Positions 7,791 through 17,955 of a DNA stretch of 64,000 nucleotides are shown in pieces. The stretch spans positions 1 through 64,000 of the forward strand of contig JAKAGZ010000001.1 in the NCBI GenBank assembly GCA_021815365.1, in the 5' to 3' direction. The position numbers and the translations under genes are program-made. Under the pieces are notes generated by a model. The model ran no database searches. It had not been told where the DNA came from and saw only the letters and a list, made by a program, of their open reading frames with translations. The DNA is from Bacteroidota bacterium. Lineage in GTDB: Bacteria; Bacteroidota; Ignavibacteria; Ignavibacteriales; Ignavibacteriaceae. The stretch's first letter is position 1, and each line of letters begins with the position of its first letter.

Positions 7791-8732
7791 ATGGAATTTA
7801 AAGATTACTACAAAATATTAGGCGTTGATAAAAACGCAACCGCAGAAGAAATTAAAAAAGCTTACCGCCGGCTGGCAATGAAATATCACCCGGATAAAAA
7901 TCCGAACAATAAATCTGCAGAAGAAAAATTTAAAGAAATTACAGAAGCGAACGAAGTGCTGAGCGATCCGGAAAAAAGAAAAAAATATGATACACTCGGT
8001 GCTAACTGGAAACAATATCAGCACGCCGGAAGGGGATCAGCAGAAGAATTTTTCAGAAACTTTACCGGCAGAGGCAGCGGCGGAAGTTATCATTTCACCG
8101 GTGACTTTTCCGATATTTTCGGAAATGCGGGAGGATTTTCAGATTTCTTCGAAAGTTTCTTCGGCGGCGGATTCAGATCTACAAAAGGGGATTCCCCTTT
8201 CGGTACACAACAGCCTCATAAGGGAAACGACTTCGAATCTACTTTAAATATCACCCTGGAAGAAGCCCATAGGGGAACTGAGAGACAAATAAGTGTTGAC
8301 GGACAAAGGTTAAAAATAAAAATTACTCCAGGCATACAGGAGGGGAAAAAATTAAGGCTAAAGGGACGCGGTGAATACAGTAAAACCGGCGGAGACAGGG
8401 GCGATCTTTATTTAACGATCCATATTACCGATCATCCATGGTTTGAAAGAAAAGGAGACGATCTGTATTACAATTTAAATGTTGATCTTTACACTGCGGT
8501 GCTAGGCGGCAAGGAAAAAATAGAAACGATCGATGGAAAAAGACTGATGGTAACTATTAATAAAGGTACAGACAGCGGAACAATTTTAAGGCTTAAAGGA
8601 ATGGGAATGACGAAAACAGATAACCAGAATTCAAGAGGAGATTTGCTGGTAAAAGTTTTGGTGAATGTTCCCAAGAAATTATCAAAACAAGAAGTTGAGC
8701 TATTTGAGAAATTGAAAGAGTTAAGAAAATAA
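7791..8732 (+). CDS. DnaJ-like co-chaperone of the CbpA type (no zinc finger)
   Basis: This co-chaperone stimulates Hsp70 ATPase and delivers substrates. The J domain occupies residues 1-70 with HPD at 33-35. A Gly/Phe-rich linker follows at about 80-130 ([25 protein letters not shown]). Two C-terminal substrate domains then start at about 145 with no CxxCxGxG repeats, so it is a class B (CbpA) protein, not canonical DnaJ. The 313-residue length fits. No dnaK is in this window, so its partner is encoded elsewhere. Confidence 0.92.
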
Positions 8733-8740
8733 CGGCTCGC

Positions 8741-8763
8741 TGTCATTACGATTAACAATGACA
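8741..8763 (+). terminator. Hairpin between dnaJ-like gene and htpG
   Basis: A 7-bp perfect stem, TGTCATT (8741-8747) with AATGACA (8757-8763), is followed after 7 bases by a T6 run (8771-8776). It could be a weak intrinsic terminator. Confidence 0.4.
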
Positions 8764-8803
8764 AACAAAATTTTTTAGTAACAAAAAGCACGGAGAAAAT
8801 CCA

Positions 8804-10714
8804 ATGGGTTCAGAACAGGCAACAACAATTAAATATGAATTTAAAGCAGAAGTAAAACAGCTTCTCGATATCCTTGTACATTCACTCTACACAAGCAGGG
8901 AAATATTCCTGCGTGAATTAATCTCCAACTCTTCTGATGCATTGGATAAATTGAGATTCCAATCTACTAAAGGAACTGAAATTTCAGACAGTGATTTACC
9001 ACTCGAAATCAGGATTAACTTCGATGAAAAGAAAAAGCTGTTAACTGTTTCTGATACAGGAATAGGTATGACAAAAGATGAGCTGATCAGCAATATTGGT
9101 ACGATTGCAAAATCAGGTTCTGCAGACTTTATAAAATCCTTGCAGGAAAATAGAGCCGATGCAAACAATATCATTGGAAAGTTTGGCGTTGGTTTTTATT
9201 CGGTTTTTATGGTTGCAGAAAAGGTTGTCATAAAATCAAAATCATATCAGAAAGAAGCTGAACCGGTTGTGTGGAGTTCTGACGGATTGGGAAGTTATGA
9301 AATAACTGAAACAAATGAAAAATTAAAACGCGGAACAATAATAGAAATCCATCTGAAGGAAGATGCGAAAGAATTTGCTGAAAAATACAGACTGGAAACA
9401 ACGATTAAAAAACATTCAAACTTCATACAGTTCCCAATCTATTTAGAAAAGGAAAGGGTGAATACCATCTCGGCAATCTGGAGGGAGCCGAAGAGTAATG
9501 TTAAAAAAGACCAGTACATTGAGTTCTATAAATTCCTGACTTATGACAATGAAGAACCGATGGATATTATCCATAAATCTGTTGACGCACCAATACAGTT
9601 CCACAGCCTGCTGTTTATTCCGAAAAAGAATTTTGATTTCTTTGGGTTGAACAGAGAAGACTATGGGTTAGATCTTTATGTAAGGAGAGTTTTAATTCAG
9701 CACAAAAATAAAAAGCTGCTGCCGGAATATTTAAGCTTTGTTAAAGGTGTTGTTGATTCAGAAGATCTGCCGCTGAATATTTCAAGAGAAACATTGCAGG
9801 AGAATATAATCTTTACAAAGATTGCTAACACTGTTACAAGCCAGGTCCTTTCATACTTATCAGATAAGGCAAAAGACAAGCCGGAAGAATATGCTGAATT
9901 CTGGAAAGAGCACGGAAGGTATTTCAAACTCGGTTACACAGATTTTACGAATGCAGATAAATATCAGCAGCTCCTGAGGTTTAATTCCTCCAACGATAAA
10001 GATGATAAAGGCTTGACTTCGATTGAAGATTATGTTTCAAGATTTAAGAAAGATCAGAAAGAAATTTACTACGCATTCGGTAACAGCAGGGAAGCGATCG
10101 AGCAGGACCCGCATCTTGAAATTTTTAAAAAGAAAGGATTAGAAGTCCTTTATCTTTACGACCCCCTCGATGAATTTGTGCTAAGCTCAATAAGAAAATT
10201 TAAAGACTACGAATTTAAATCAGTCGACACAGTTGATTTAAGCAAACTCGACAAGTTTAAAGACAGCGGAGAGAAAAAAGATAAATTAGAAGAACTGAGC
10301 AAAGATGATACGAAACATTTTGACAGTCTGCTTTCGAGAATAAAAGATATTCTCGGCGACAGAGTAACAGAAGTTAAAGAATCAAAGAGATTAAGTGAAA
10401 GCCCTTGTGTGCTTGTGAACCAGGACGAAACAATGTCATCTCAGATGCAGAAAATCATAAGAATGACTACAAAAGATATGAGTATTCAGAAAAAGACTTT
10501 CGAAATAAACAGGGATCACAAACTCATAAGAAACCTTTTAAAAGTGTTTAAAACGAATTCAAAAGATAATTATATAACAGACACTGTTGAGGAATTGTTT
10601 GAAGCCGCACAACTGCTCACCGGCGATCTTACAGATCCTCACAGGCTTGTGAACAGAATAAACAAAACGCTCGAACATGCAAGTGAAATGTACGTAGATC
10701 GGATAAAGGGATAA
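8804..10714 (+). CDS. htpG: Chaperone HtpG (bacterial Hsp90)
   Basis: This ATP-dependent dimeric chaperone has the GHKL ATPase motifs in order: NSSDALDKLRFQS, DTGIGMT, GTIAKSGSADF and GKFGVGFYSVFMVA within the first 150 residues. The middle domain carries the catalytic-Arg loop LNISRETLQEN near residue 325, and the C-terminal dimerisation domain ends the 636-residue chain. A GGAG ribosome-binding site precedes the ATG. It lies in the chaperone cluster upstream of clpB with a 27-base gap. Confidence 0.96.
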   Translation: MGSEQATTIKYEFKAEVKQLLDILVHSLYTSREIFLRELISNSSDALDKLRFQSTKGTEISDSDLPLEIRINFDEKKKLLTVSDTGIGMTKDELISNIGTIAKSGSADFIKSLQENRADANNIIGKFGVGFYSVFMVAEKVVIKSKSYQKEAEPVVWSSDGLGSYEITETNEKLKRGTIIEIHLKEDAKEFAEKYRLETTIKKHSNFIQFPIYLEKERVNTISAIWREPKSNVKKDQYIEFYKFLTYDNEEPMDIIHKSVDAPIQFHSLLFIPKKNFDFFGLNREDYGLDLYVRRVLIQHKNKKLLPEYLSFVKGVVDSEDLPLNISRETLQENIIFTKIANTVTSQVLSYLSDKAKDKPEEYAEFWKEHGRYFKLGYTDFTNADKYQQLLRFNSSNDKDDKGLTSIEDYVSRFKKDQKEIYYAFGNSREAIEQDPHLEIFKKKGLEVLYLYDPLDEFVLSSIRKFKDYEFKSVDTVDLSKLDKFKDSGEKKDKLEELSKDDTKHFDSLLSRIKDILGDRVTEVKESKRLSESPCVLVNQDETMSSQMQKIIRMTTKDMSIQKKTFEINRDHKLIRNLLKVFKTNSKDNYITDTVEELFEAAQLLTGDLTDPHRLVNRINKTLEHASEMYVDRIKG

Positions 10715-10741
10715 GAAAATTTCAGAAGGAAAAGTTATTTT

Positions 10742-13386: not shown

Positions 13387-13425
13387 ATTGCGTCTATACA
13401 GCCTGTTTGGTATAATATACGCAAT
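13387..13425 (+). terminator. Imperfect inverted repeat after clpB
   Basis: ATTGCGT (13387-13393) pairs with ACGCAAT (13419-13425), extended by TATAC/GTATA. There is no T-tract after it. It could terminate clpB or be part of a worn recombination site at the edge of the accessory island. Confidence 0.35.
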
Positions 13426-13496
13426 GGAAATTATAAATTGGGTTGTTAAAGGAGTTATACGCCACATTTTCTTTCACAACATAAGGAGTTTTCAAA

Positions 13497-14078
13497 ATGG
13501 AAACCAGTAATATTCGAGTAAAATTTTCACACGGCGATATTATGATTGAGTTAGAGGGAGATGCGTCAACTGTTTTGTCTGAACTCCGCTCACTCAAAAA
13601 GGATGGAACTGGTAAACTTTTAGAATTTTTTGGAATACTTCCTGCTCATTCGAGTACCACCATCCAACCACACCATGATGGGAAAGTTACACATCCACCA
13701 GCACAACATATTGACCTTAAAAACTTTCCTCCTCTTAATGATATTGTTCTGAGAAATCTCCCAAAGAGTGAAGCCGAATGGATTGCAATCTACGGATATT
13801 TTGCTTCCAATGGTGGTAAAAAGACATTCACCCGTGATGAACTTTGGAACCAATATAAAACTTCTCAACGAAACACAAAGGGACGACGTGATAACCTCAC
13901 CAACAATATAAAACAAGCTGTCTCGAAAAGTTGGATTTCAAACATTAGTGAAGATACATTCAGTCTTTTGGATGAAGGCATTGCCAAAGCAAAGGAAATC
14001 GTTTCCAGAGAAAAAGCCCCTAAGAAACGAATTATCAAATCAAGAAACAAAAAAACAGCTAAGGAGAGTAAAGCATAA
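13497..14078 (+). CDS. Unknown protein with winged-helix-like middle and basic tail
   Basis: No named family is recognised in these 193 residues. The N-terminal 50 residues (IRVKFSHGDIMIELEGDAST then VLSELRSL) look like a beta-hairpin plus helix. Residues 90-165 (EAEWIAIYGYFASNGGKKTF then DELWNQY) look like a helix-turn-helix or winged helix. The last 25 residues are Lys/Arg-rich, fitting nucleic-acid binding. An AAGGAG ribosome-binding site precedes the ATG. Its TAA shares a base with the ATG of the next gene, so the two are coupled and probably act together. It lies in the integron-like cassette. Confidence 0.75.
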   Translation: METSNIRVKFSHGDIMIELEGDASTVLSELRSLKKDGTGKLLEFFGILPAHSSTTIQPHHDGKVTHPPAQHIDLKNFPPLNDIVLRNLPKSEAEWIAIYGYFASNGGKKTFTRDELWNQYKTSQRNTKGRRDNLTNNIKQAVSKSWISNISEDTFSLLDEGIAKAKEIVSREKAPKKRIIKSRNKKTAKESKA

Positions 14079-14857
14079 TGGCTGATTCTTCCGAGCTTTC
14101 TGTTGATCTTGTTAAAGCATTTGGCAAAACACTCGGGCAGGTTTATGCAACAGCGATGTTATCTCATTTTGCTGGAATGCGTCTCGCTTACTTTGCGAGA
14201 GATTGGGAATCTTGTAGTACTAAGGGTGGAAAATTTGTCGAGGCATTGCTAAAAGGAATTCACTTCTTTACCACAGGAAATAGACCGAAAAGAATCAATG
14301 TCGGGGCTGAGATTGACAGGCTTGCAAATCTTCCAAAAGATTCTTTCAATGATTCTATTCGTTTACTAATCCCTCGTGTATCTCGATCGCTTTATCATAT
14401 AGCAAGCGATCGGGGTGCGCGCCATGATATTACTGGTTTCGACCCGAGTCGGATGGACGCACAAATGACTATTGCATCTGCATCATTCATCTTAGCAGAA
14501 CTTGTTCGCTTATTCCACCCTGGTAATCTGTCTTCTGATGAAGCCCAAACAATTGCTGATGGACTTGTTCAACGGAGAATCCCACTCGTTACTGCGGTTT
14601 TTGATGTTAAACGTGTCCTAAATCCGAAGCTGGAATATAGTGACAAAGCAATGTTGTTGTTATATGACTCTTATCCTAAACCTGTGCGAGTAACTGACCT
14701 TTTCAATTGGTCTGAACATAGAAATATTACTGACTTCAAACGTAAAATTTTGCAAAAACTTCATGATCAAAAATTAATTGAATATCGTGATAATCTTTGC
14801 GTATTACTCGAGCCCGGACTTAGATATGTTGATCAGAATTTTATTCCTAATAAATGA
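14078..14857 (+). CDS. Unknown protein, possible HEPN-like helical domain plus winged helix
   Basis: The 259-residue protein is mostly helical. The central stretch IPRVSRSLYHIASDRGARHD (98-117) followed by MDAQMTIASASFILAELVRL (126-145) resembles small abortive-infection-type proteins with RNKRGxxH-like motifs. R100-x6-H107 nominally fits an Rx4-6H spacing, but the Arg expected just before RGARH is replaced by Ala, so nuclease activity is doubtful. The C-terminal 60 residues look like a winged helix. The function is not known. Coupled start (TAATG) with the upstream gene; the attC-like site begins 13 bases after its stop. Confidence 0.75.
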   Translation: MADSSELSVDLVKAFGKTLGQVYATAMLSHFAGMRLAYFARDWESCSTKGGKFVEALLKGIHFFTTGNRPKRINVGAEIDRLANLPKDSFNDSIRLLIPRVSRSLYHIASDRGARHDITGFDPSRMDAQMTIASASFILAELVRLFHPGNLSSDEAQTIADGLVQRRIPLVTAVFDVKRVLNPKLEYSDKAMLLLYDSYPKPVRVTDLFNWSEHRNITDFKRKILQKLHDQKLIEYRDNLCVLLEPGLRYVDQNFIPNK

Positions 14858-14870
14858 AGAAGAAAATGCG

Positions 14871-15009
14871 GCGTATAACAGCGAAAAACAATGACGCTCA
14901 CACATTTTACGATTGATTATAGAGTTCGCTCCATCCCCCCCCCGCCACATTAAATGAATCTTTTTTGAGCGGCTGGCGGGACGGCATTGTTTTCGCACAC
15001 GTTACGTGC
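14871..15009 (+). repeat. attC-like recombination site
   Basis: The 139-base site folds as one long hairpin. R''-like GCGTATAAC (14871-14879) opposes R'-like GTTACGTGC (15001-15009). GCGAAAAACAATG (14881-14893) pairs with CATTGTTTTCGC (14985-14996) except for one extra A, like the extrahelical bases of attC sites. An inner stem CCCGCCA/TGGCGGG (14941-14947 with 14974-14980) continues the fold. The terminal R arms are only partly complementary, as expected when the right R' belongs to the next cassette or integration site. Confidence 0.65.
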
Positions 15010-15070
15010 AATAGTGCCAATTAGCCTGAAATTTCTTACATTTGAAGTGAACTCTATGTAAGGATAAATA

Positions 15071-16033
15071 ATGCCTGAAGTATTCGCAAGGAAAAAAGAA
15101 AAAACAACTTTCTTCGGTCAAACGGAAAATCACGGTGAGATTCTGCCAATTAATATGGCTTCATACAAATCAGAAATACCCGTGCTTTATTACAAACACA
15201 AGAACGGCAAGATTTGGGCTGGTGATTCTATTGCTTGGCTCAAATCATTGAATGAATCTTCTGTTGACTTAGTTTTTGCTGATCCACCTTACAATTTAAA
15301 TAAGGCAGAATGGGATAGCTTTGAATCACATCAAGAGTATATTGAGTGGTCTATTTCCTGGATAGAATTAGCTGCTAAAGCTTTAAAGCCCAATGGTACT
15401 CTTTACATTTGCGGTTTTTCGGAAATCCTTGCTGACATCAAAGCTCCGGCAATGAAGTTCTTCAAAGGATGCCGCTGGATTGTTTGGCATTACAAGAACA
15501 AAGCAAATCTTGGAAACGATTGGGGACGATCACACGAAAGCATTCTTCATTTTCGGAAGAGCAAGGAATTCAAACTAAATGTTAATGACATAAGAATTCC
15601 ATACTCCAATCACACATTAAAATATCCGAGTCATCCACAAGCTGTAACAAGCCAATACGGGAATGGAGACAAAGAGCATATTTGGGAACCAAATCCGAAA
15701 GGTGCTAAACCAAAAGATGTAATTGAGATTCCAACGACTTGCAATGGTATGCACGAAAAGACAACACATCCTACTCAGAAACCGGAAGAGCTTCTAAGGA
15801 AGATCATCCTTGCTTCATCTAACATTGGCGATCTGATTGTTGATCCGTTTCTTGGCTCCGGCACAACTGCCGTTTGTGCAGAACAACTAAAAAGGAAATG
15901 GATGGGTTGTGACATTTCTCCTGAGTATTGCGGCTTTGCTGTAAAGCGATTAGAGTTGGTAGAACCCTGGAGCATTGAGAAATGGATTCAGTATGACATT
16001 GAAAACCAAAAACGAAGAATGTCTATCAGATGA
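15071..16033 (+). CDS. Type II DNA methyltransferase, adenine-specific (beta class)
   Basis: It transfers methyl from SAM to an adenine in its recognition site. The catalytic motif DPPYNL (71-76) comes before the SAM-binding motif DPFLGSGTT (258-266), which is the beta-class order. HPTQKP (233-238), usual for this class, is present. The 320-residue length fits. The ATG follows AAGGA. The stop overlaps the endonuclease ATG (ATGA), so it forms a coupled R-M pair. The recognition site cannot be read from the sequence. Confidence 0.9.
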   Translation: MPEVFARKKEKTTFFGQTENHGEILPINMASYKSEIPVLYYKHKNGKIWAGDSIAWLKSLNESSVDLVFADPPYNLNKAEWDSFESHQEYIEWSISWIELAAKALKPNGTLYICGFSEILADIKAPAMKFFKGCRWIVWHYKNKANLGNDWGRSHESILHFRKSKEFKLNVNDIRIPYSNHTLKYPSHPQAVTSQYGNGDKEHIWEPNPKGAKPKDVIEIPTTCNGMHEKTTHPTQKPEELLRKIILASSNIGDLIVDPFLGSGTTAVCAEQLKRKWMGCDISPEYCGFAVKRLELVEPWSIEKWIQYDIENQKRRMSIR

Positions 16034-16986
16034 AAAAATATACGCTTGAAGACCTGCAGGAGAGTATCAGAGACAAAACAGCTTTTAGACAAATTGATGA
16101 CTATGCAAAACTTGCTATAGCTTTCCTTAACCTCATTCCCAGACTGAAGCCAACAAGAATCGTTTCCCCGAACACTAAGAATTATATCTTCTTTCAATAC
16201 GGGGCAAAATATTCTCATCGTATTTCACGACCGCTTAATACAAACCTTTTCATTGAAGACCCGCATAAATTAAACAAAAGTTTCGAGCGGCTCCTTAATT
16301 TTTTAAATGATGTCCGAAAATTGGAACGCAACGTTCTTGATAAAAAATCTTATCGTTCGTTTCTCGATTCCCAAGAGATTAACAAAGTAGTTTACACTGT
16401 GCAGCAATCCATCGGCTGCATAACTGATTCATTCGATAATCCGAACACTGCGAGAAAGCGGGTAGGACAACTTTTTGAGAACCTGATTAAACTAACAATA
16501 CAACAGGTTGGCATTGTTTGCGAGCCACGCACGATTACAATTCCAATTCCCGGATACGAAGATTACGAAATGTCTTATGAACTTGATTTGGTTTTCTCAA
16601 GAAACAAAGCAGTCATCGCATCTGAAACAAAATACATTCACGACTCTGAAATAGTCGGTTCTGTGAAAACAACAAGTAAAGATAGAATCGACAAGATTTT
16701 TCTAGACAAGTATCTTCTCACCAAACTTCTCGGTAGAAACATTCCAGTCATTGCCATTTTTCTTCACGATGTCCAGAGGGCTACAAAAGGTGATAGCATT
16801 TTCGGTATAAACTCGACTTTCAAAAGTAATCATTTTCTCGGATACACTATCGCTCTCAATCGTCTTGACGGTGTCTATTATGTTGACCCACGACCAGAGA
16901 TGGTAACAAACGAACGACTTAAAGAACAAATTAAAGATTTTCAAAAATTTATTGTGACTGAGCTTTGGGAATTATCGAAAAGGTAA
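16030..16986 (+). CDS. Probable type II restriction endonuclease (PD-(D/E)XK)
   Basis: The 318-residue protein overlaps the upstream methyltransferase by 4 bases, the typical place for its cognate nuclease. A PD-(D/E)XK core is visible: QLFENLIK (E150), then YELDLVF (D186) and, 13 residues later, the pair E199-T-K201 in IASETKYIHD. The rest is not matched to a named enzyme. The function is inferred from the motif plus operon context. Confidence 0.75.
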   Translation: MKKYTLEDLQESIRDKTAFRQIDDYAKLAIAFLNLIPRLKPTRIVSPNTKNYIFFQYGAKYSHRISRPLNTNLFIEDPHKLNKSFERLLNFLNDVRKLERNVLDKKSYRSFLDSQEINKVVYTVQQSIGCITDSFDNPNTARKRVGQLFENLIKLTIQQVGIVCEPRTITIPIPGYEDYEMSYELDLVFSRNKAVIASETKYIHDSEIVGSVKTTSKDRIDKIFLDKYLLTKLLGRNIPVIAIFLHDVQRATKGDSIFGINSTFKSNHFLGYTIALNRLDGVYYVDPRPEMVTNERLKEQIKDFQKFIVTELWELSKR

Positions 16987-17034
16987 AGAATTGACACTAC
17001 TGCAAATAACATCAAGCAAAAATGGCTGCTGACT

Positions 17035-17754
17035 ATGACCGACAAACACGATGATATAAAAAAATTTTTAGATACCCTTCCTGACACATTCGACATTTTA
17101 GAAGTGGGCATTGACATTCAAACACAAAAGGAATACCTCGATTACTCCCATTCGTTTGACCGTGGCGAACTTACCGAGACAGAGACTATCAATCTGGGCA
17201 ACATCCTTCTTGACACCAGGACAGAAATAGAAGCAAAGAAAAAAGTACTGACCTTGTTAGCTCATCTGGAGTCAATTACAGCGTTTCGACAAATTGAAAA
17301 ATATTTGAAAAATCCCGACAAGGACTTAAAAGGATGGGCAGCTTTGGCGTTGCAAGAGTGCAAAATGTTCCTCGAGAGCACATTGACAGAACAGAGTACA
17401 GGCTTTATCTCAAGCGGACTCGGGGGACTTAAGGACAAGCTGCGGTACTTTTTTCTTGTTTTATCATCATCGGACAGACCATTTACCACGACACAAAAGA
17501 GCATAATAAAAGAGGAATTTATTCTTGCAGCCAAAGACTTAAATTGTGTTGTAGAAGCCGTTGAACATTCAGACATATTTGTCGGGCTGACAGTTTTGGT
17601 ACCAATGGGCGTTGCCGTGGGAACATTCATCGAGACAGGAATAAAAATGTGCAATGATTTGGGCGACTTTGTGTTTGAACATTATTACGTGACAAATCAA
17701 GAAATTCCAGACAAATCAGAAATTCTGGACATCATTAAAATAGTAAAAGGATAA
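17035..17754 (+). CDS. HEAT-like repeat protein of unknown function
   Basis: Residues 65-115 (KKVLTLLAHLESITAFRQIE, then GWAALALQECKMFLES) resemble HEAT-type helical pairs. The C-terminal half is a distinct domain with LRYFFLVLSSSDRPFTTTQK and VGTFIETGIKMCNDLGDFVF. Proteins of this shape are common as accessory genes in Bacteroidota, but I know no tested function. It is 49 bases after the endonuclease and may be cotranscribed. It could be part of the R-M locus or an independent passenger. Confidence 0.7.
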   Translation: MTDKHDDIKKFLDTLPDTFDILEVGIDIQTQKEYLDYSHSFDRGELTETETINLGNILLDTRTEIEAKKKVLTLLAHLESITAFRQIEKYLKNPDKDLKGWAALALQECKMFLESTLTEQSTGFISSGLGGLKDKLRYFFLVLSSSDRPFTTTQKSIIKEEFILAAKDLNCVVEAVEHSDIFVGLTVLVPMGVAVGTFIETGIKMCNDLGDFVFEHYYVTNQEIPDKSEILDIIKIVKG

Positions 17755-17772
17755 AAATTGACGGTGCATAAT

Positions 17773-17801
17773 AGCACTTACCGCTAAAAGAGGTTAGTGC
17801 T
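17773..17801 (+). terminator. Hairpin at the right end of the accessory island
   Basis: AGCACTTACC (17773-17782) pairs with GGTTAGTGCT (17792-17801) with one mismatch. It follows the HEAT-like gene by 19 bases. It may end the island transcript. No clear attC-like fold was found in 17755-17955. Confidence 0.4.
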
Positions 17802-17955
17802 TCTCAGGACAGGAAAAAAGACTTGCTCACCCAGTCAGCCATACCTGCCTTTAGCCGACCCTAATTGCTTTTTGTAGAATTTATGGTGAAACTTTAACAG
17901 CAAAAGCCAAGATTTCCATCGAAACTATTTTCAAAACACAATTATTTCACAGATT

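Follow-up and report, generated by a model that had tools for sequence, protein, structure and literature searches.

We analysed a 64,000-nucleotide stretch of DNA (hereafter the window; G000:C98:1-64000) from a draft genome of 3.09 Mb in 110 contigs. From its kinship to two identified members of its phylum, a Chitinophagaceae bacterium and Fodinibius, we take the host to belong to the Bacteroidota group, probably to an Ignavibacteria-like class. At an isolated position downstream of clpB, the window carries two plus-strand genes: gene A (13497..14078), an open reading frame for a small, poorly conserved partner protein of 193 aa, and gene B (14078..14857), which encodes a protein of 259 aa. 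These genes are followed on the same strand by a foldable, attC-type site of 139 nt (14871..15009). The left edge of the segment, GTTATACGCC at 13454-13463 on the plus strand, recurs as its exact reverse complement, GGCGTATAAC, at 14870-14879. A preliminary description of this DNA had reported that the left edge is mirrored at the 139-base site; the match was indeed exact and, at 10 bp, reached one bp beyond the earlier claim. Searching both strands of the whole 3.09-Mb genome, we found three copies of this 10-mer, two of which form the edge/site pair; the third lies within a coding region.

An attC-type site and the limits of the cassette

Reading along the plus strand, the site consists of R'' (GCGTATAAC, 14871-14879), a 5' stem of GCGAAA-A-ACAATG with one extra A (14881-14893), a 3' stem of CATTGTTTTCGC (14985-14996) and R' (GTTACGTGC, 15001-15009). 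The stem thus comprises 12 bp with a single extrahelical A, just as first described. When we scanned the window for attC geometry, this site ranked top with a score of 13 (stem score 12, R-box pairing 6.0), and the runner-up scored 10.3. In 30 Markov-shuffled windows, scanned on one strand, no match reached the stem score of this site together with R-box pairing of at least 6.5, and few of these windows came close to it. The folding energy of the bottom strand, taken alone, was only modestly better than that of shuffled sequences (z -2.0).

We then used a home-made covariance model, distinct from that of IntegronFinder, which was trained on four sites from G011 and G027 and from which the sites of the window's own genome were left out. 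Its one significant match in the 64 kb, at 84.8 bits and E 1.1e-20, coincided exactly with 14871-15009. Among seven related sites, 9 of the 12 stem pairs showed changes on both sides of the pair, and the values were far lower once the pairing partners were slid. An Rfam search of the window returned no match. The site therefore has both the R''-L''-L'-R' fold and the covariance-model match of an attC, and the original suggestion that it is of attC type now has an independent footing in this match and in the covariation. Placing the crossovers by the R'/R'' rule, at G13454^T13455 and G15001^T15002, delimits a plus-strand cassette of 1547 bp (13455..15001), which agrees with the limits proposed before. 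Its start is the reverse complement of its own R'' at 10 out of 10 positions.

A scattered gene pair in the cassette

Neither gene A nor gene B matched a Pfam, NCBIfam or PADLOC family significantly. Homologs of gene B, 23-36% identical to it, are scattered across Bradyrhizobium, Erythrobacter, Chitinophagaceae, Nitrospinota, Fodinibius, Pedobacter, Saccharibacteria and others. A smaller partner open reading frame lies 5' of gene B in most homolog-bearing genomes, which span several phyla. We detected no match to gene B in the plasmids or phages searched. An AlphaFold2 model (mean pLDDT 86) and a Foldseek search, in which winged-helix and HEPN structures matched weakly and never at E <= 0.001, suggest that the predicted gene B protein combines a HEPN-like helical N-terminal part with a C-terminal winged helix.

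Gene B resembles HEPN/Abi_C proteins in its helical domain with RGxxH, its scattered distribution and the location of one relative near a restriction-like gene. It differs from them in that Pfam Abi_C was found only weakly among its relatives (3 out of 10, best E 0.15) and in that the window copy has a degenerate form of the conserved RNxRGxGH motif, with A109 replacing the conserved first Arg. Gene B thus has neither a significant match to that family nor an intact catalytic motif. The two genes form a scattered accessory pair; that its role is in defence would be a guess. Storage of defence genes in cassettes is a known use, according to references cited in PMC12444791. At one Fodinibius locus (L045 1032-2261), a relative of the gene pair is preceded by a restriction-like open reading frame, which hints at a defence neighbourhood.

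Sites of the same type form arrays in related genomes

The preliminary description had proposed a search for further copies of the fold in the genome. BLAST with the site identified a second copy in the same genome, on contig C107 (85% identical); in all, the copies of the window type elsewhere in this genome lie on C107 (two) and C75, and relatives have them as well. Related sites were also identified by BLAST in G027 and G011, and those of G011:C58 form an array in which the start of each cassette is the reverse complement of its own R''. Using a wider covariance model, we detected window-type attC sites in 69 of the 393 genomes searched. The 24 sources that we fetched contained 104 window-type sites, mostly arranged as one-strand arrays. 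When we compared R' of each site with the reverse complement of R'' of the following site, 48 out of 64 consecutive pairs agreed at 8 or more of 9 positions, as against 25% of random pairs.

The pairing of R' and R'' that had first been taken as the mark of an excisable cassette thus extends to the related arrays. Given the model match, together with related sites and arrays in which a cassette start mirrors its own R'', we consider 13455-15001 almost certain, as judged from sequence, to be an integron-type gene cassette. The window site was not found in the plasmids searched. Its internal motif, TTATAGAGTTCGCTC, was absent from all the others of 395 phylum genomes drawn, and viral contigs with TTATAGAGTTCGCTC gave no match to the sites.

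An intact IntI resides elsewhere in the genome, with attC sites of another kind

The cassette had been described as lacking an integrase. This holds at the locus, where none lies beside the cassette, but not for the genome as a whole: the search for intI that had been proposed revealed an intact IntI at G000:C35:1651-2589 (420 bits; cut-off of the IntI model, 265), with ordinary attC sites adjoining. The locus (L016, G000:C35 1615-6290) is a complete-looking integron in which IntI faces the array; behind IntI lie an N6/N4-type methylase and a second open reading frame, then two ordinary attC sites, after which the contig ends. Contig C19 (L076, ~8100-10720, minus strand) holds a cluster of two or more cassettes whose R'/R'' pairs are exact; one of these cassettes carries what, by eye, looks like a RelBE-type toxin-antitoxin pair. 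With IntI and attC on C35 and an attC cluster on C19, this lineage plainly uses integrons; complete integrons have been reported before in Chlorobi and Ignavibacteriae (PMC9024848).

The sites next to IntI and the window-type sites were separated in several respects. There were zero window-type attC sites in 339 kb around IntI genes. IntI, at E 1e-60, was missing from 16 of the 28 genomes with window-type attC, and these IntI-less genomes include assemblies of about 10, 20 and 30 contigs. Within the first 12 bp of each stem, the part scored for extrahelical bases, 65 of 82 window-type sites were unbulged and 32 of 33 IntI-adjacent sites had one extrahelical base. The window attC is, on this evidence, of a subfamily other than the IntI-adjacent sites, and sites of this subfamily appear behind a recombinase without the IntI-specific domain (see below). 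We advise against classing the locus as a classical integron, since no IntI with its additional domain lies beside the array and the attC type differs from the IntI-adjacent type here.

The window site and one C107 site have an extra A in the L stem. Indeed, both good-stem sites of this genome (14871-15009 and L075:6857-6993) carry it and most relatives do not; the host of these sites has IntI and no array-type recombinase. The extra A could be an adaptation to IntI or the result of slippage in the A run.

A tyrosine recombinase lies at the head of some arrays

We observed a tyrosine recombinase in 6 out of 26 array loci (L172, L176, L179, L185, L189 and L204; that of L185 is broken), several of the recombinase-less loci beginning at contig ends. 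All six lie on the strand of the array, 528-994 bp upstream of the first recognised attC, and never inside the array. L204 was chosen because the proximity of recombinase and attC had already been seen there; the other five loci were not so chosen. The five intact proteins align with IntI and keep the catalytic residues, and they are without the IntI-specific insertion. They scored 201-245 bits against the IntI model, under the cut-off of 265. Identity to the L176 protein, from G212, was 49-69% for the other array recombinases and 37% for IntI.

In a phylogenetic tree, the array recombinases grouped apart from IntI. Four of the five intact proteins formed a supported clade (95/95); L189 joined them in 96% of bootstrap trees, without a starred branch, and its placement is less certain. 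One of these systems, that of G028, occurs in a genome of the window's own family. Like recombinases of the XerA/XerC/XerD type (NF040815, TIGR02224 and TIGR02225), the array proteins belong to the same family and lack the IntI insertion, and two of them exceeded the NF040815 cut-off; unlike the Xer-type proteins, they sit at the heads of cassette arrays. The closest solved structure to the G212 recombinase, by sequence, was VchIntI (2A3V, 167 bits in two stretches). This recombinase had no match in the viral contigs searched and none above 60% identity in plasmids.

Some array-head recombinases, and also some that are not linked to arrays, have an N-terminal extension of about 80 residues; in those of L172, L189, L205 and L206, it seems to resemble a HARP-type domain. 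Two-piece IntI-like recombinases (L205-L209, L211, L212 and L217) were left uncounted, there being no window-type site nearby. A further such locus, L210, had only a weak window-type site (22.8 bits, E 0.036). The genome of the window has four Phage_integrase matches, none of which is an array-type recombinase; the one on C11 is fragmentary and broken, and its closest match is XerD.

The window shares an array-head element

At three of the recombinase loci (L172, L189 and L204), a palindrome follows the stop codon of the recombinase gene and precedes the first G^TTA crossover. The palindrome is present at L176, where the first site is odd; the L179 head has no clear palindrome. The window has a comparable plus-strand element at 13387..13425, upstream of the cassette. 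This element is an inverted repeat, ATTGCGT...ACGCAAT, lying over a sigma70-like promoter predicted from sequence alone (TTGCGT at 13388-13393, a spacing of 17 nt and TATAAT at 13411-13416, plus strand).

The head pattern occurred in 2 out of 59 genomes, namely that of the window and G027, where it lies 30 bp upstream of the first cassette start; the viral contigs searched gave no match. Across all fetched loci, the paired heptamers were found only at the array heads of the window, G027, G471 and G212, and in G212 they stand directly behind the recombinase gene. The distance from head to crossover is 28-30 nt in the window and G027, compared with about 4-5 nt at most recombinase heads. Because of the shared ATTGCGT/ACGCAAT element, the window looks like the head of a window-type array from which the recombinase is missing.

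On the other side of the cassette, the adjacent plus-strand segment (15002..16986) starts with the R' half-site and encodes a type II restriction-modification pair: a modification methylase at 15071-16033 (PADLOC MTase_II, 7.7e-68) and a restriction enzyme at 16030-16986 (PADLOC REase_II, 6e-62), both on the plus strand. This segment is probably a second cassette whose own attC is not recognised. Downstream of the pair, we found no convincing attC even with filters off, the best match being 10.5 bits (E 0.33) at 17774-17868. A candidate decayed R'', GCAAATAAC, lies at 17002-17010; it and the weak match at ~17774 flank a gene of 239 aa, and the array may end on the right at these candidate decayed att sequences (17002-17868).

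Proposed system and competing explanations

Arrays of the window type resemble integrons in having sites with an R''/L''/L'/R' fold, cassettes on one strand, a tyrosine recombinase at the head and, judging by the cassette edges, a G^TT crossover. They differ from integrons in that the array recombinase is without the additional domain specific to IntI, an extrahelical base is absent from most attC stems, a palindrome stands at the array head behind the recombinase gene and the sites closest to that of the window share a conserved internal motif near TTATAGAGTTCGCTC.

We consider it probable that the window is the orphan head of an integrase-less array and that its attC subfamily, which would be class-wide, is served by a non-IntI tyrosine recombinase; we call the locus an orphan because no array-type recombinase was found in its genome. 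As to the wider system, we lean slightly towards a second type of integron, consisting of a recombinase without the domain that is taken to define IntI and to be necessary to it, attC sites without extrahelical bases and a palindromic insertion site at the 3' end of the recombinase's own gene. A literature search of open-licence papers brought up no account of cassettes served by a recombinase of this kind.

In the arrays that retain a recombinase, its gene faces the array, and behind it, as described above, come the palindrome and the G^TTA crossover where the first cassette starts. Under this proposal, the recombinase would bind the palindromic array head, its putative attachment site, as the place of insertion, would recognise folded attC without the need for extrahelical bases, and would presumably carry out cassette recombination itself, inserting or excising between G and TT, as IntI does. 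At the window locus, the array-head element and a cassette remain, and their movement would depend on an enzyme supplied in trans. Since the additional domain defines IntI (PMC9668308), and since VchIntIA and IntI1 no longer excise between attC sites if neither site has extrahelical bases (PMC2727003), a domain-less enzyme and base-less sites would make a coherent pair.

A less likely explanation is that the window is an ordinary CALIN whose cassettes are moved in trans by a canonical IntI, the domain-less recombinase near some arrays serving some unrelated function. CALINs occur commonly, and IntI is able to act in trans (PMC9668308; PMC12444791). The window resembles a CALIN in having an attC with no integrase adjoining, its genome has an intact IntI and no array-type recombinase, and its site carries an extrahelical A, which IntI could favour. 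However, a CALIN comprises at least two attC sites without an integrase under the IntegronFinder 2 default (PMC9024848), and the window has one recognised attC (C107, in the same genome, has two of the window type). Furthermore, none of the IntI loci examined had a window-type site nearby, and IntI was missing from 16 of 28 genomes; the recombinase was always on the same strand and at the head of the array, never inside it; and the extrahelical base on which IntI depends in attC x attC excision is missing from most window-type sites. IntI-based tools would also class as CALINs some related arrays that have a recombinase of their own.

We judge it improbable that the resident IntI put a circular cassette into a chromosomal attG downstream of clpB. 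Insertion into attG is established for other integrons according to Loot et al. 2024, as cited in PMC12901181 and PMC12444791, and the isolated location after clpB, away from the integron of this genome, would fit such an event. By contrast, the left flank has an element shared with the array heads of G027, G471 and G212 and otherwise absent from the 59 genomes and the fetched loci, and thus the insertion site is not a random genomic GTT; the right segment, too, begins with another R' and carries restriction-modification genes. Among the genomes searched for an empty counterpart of the locus, none was of the same genus. Coincidence of a chance inverted repeat with an unrelated stem-loop or repeat element is exceedingly unlikely: the folding energy alone, which is unremarkable (z -2.0), would fit it, but an independent model match at E 1e-20, covariation and a cassette rule kept in 48 of 64 pairs all stand against it.

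The second type of integron that we propose suggests an overlooked route by which genes are shuffled as cassettes. Both the definition of IntI and the detection of integrons rely on the additional domain, and arrays with another recombinase would therefore be filed as CALINs; if our reading is true, many apparent CALINs in this class would be complete systems that current detection misses. Were the domain-less enzyme to recombine folded attC, the additional domain would be matched with the extrahelical bases, and the two could be absent together, which bears directly on the evolution by which a double-strand recombinase came to work on single-stranded sites. Such systems would also widen the known bacterial means of sharing and shuffling genes, including restriction and possible defence genes.

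Unusually large cassettes were seen at one G027 locus (L139, G027:C100 1260-9163, minus strand). By eye, these contain a PfkB-like gene and a pair consisting of a kinase-like gene and a response-regulator/cyclase gene.
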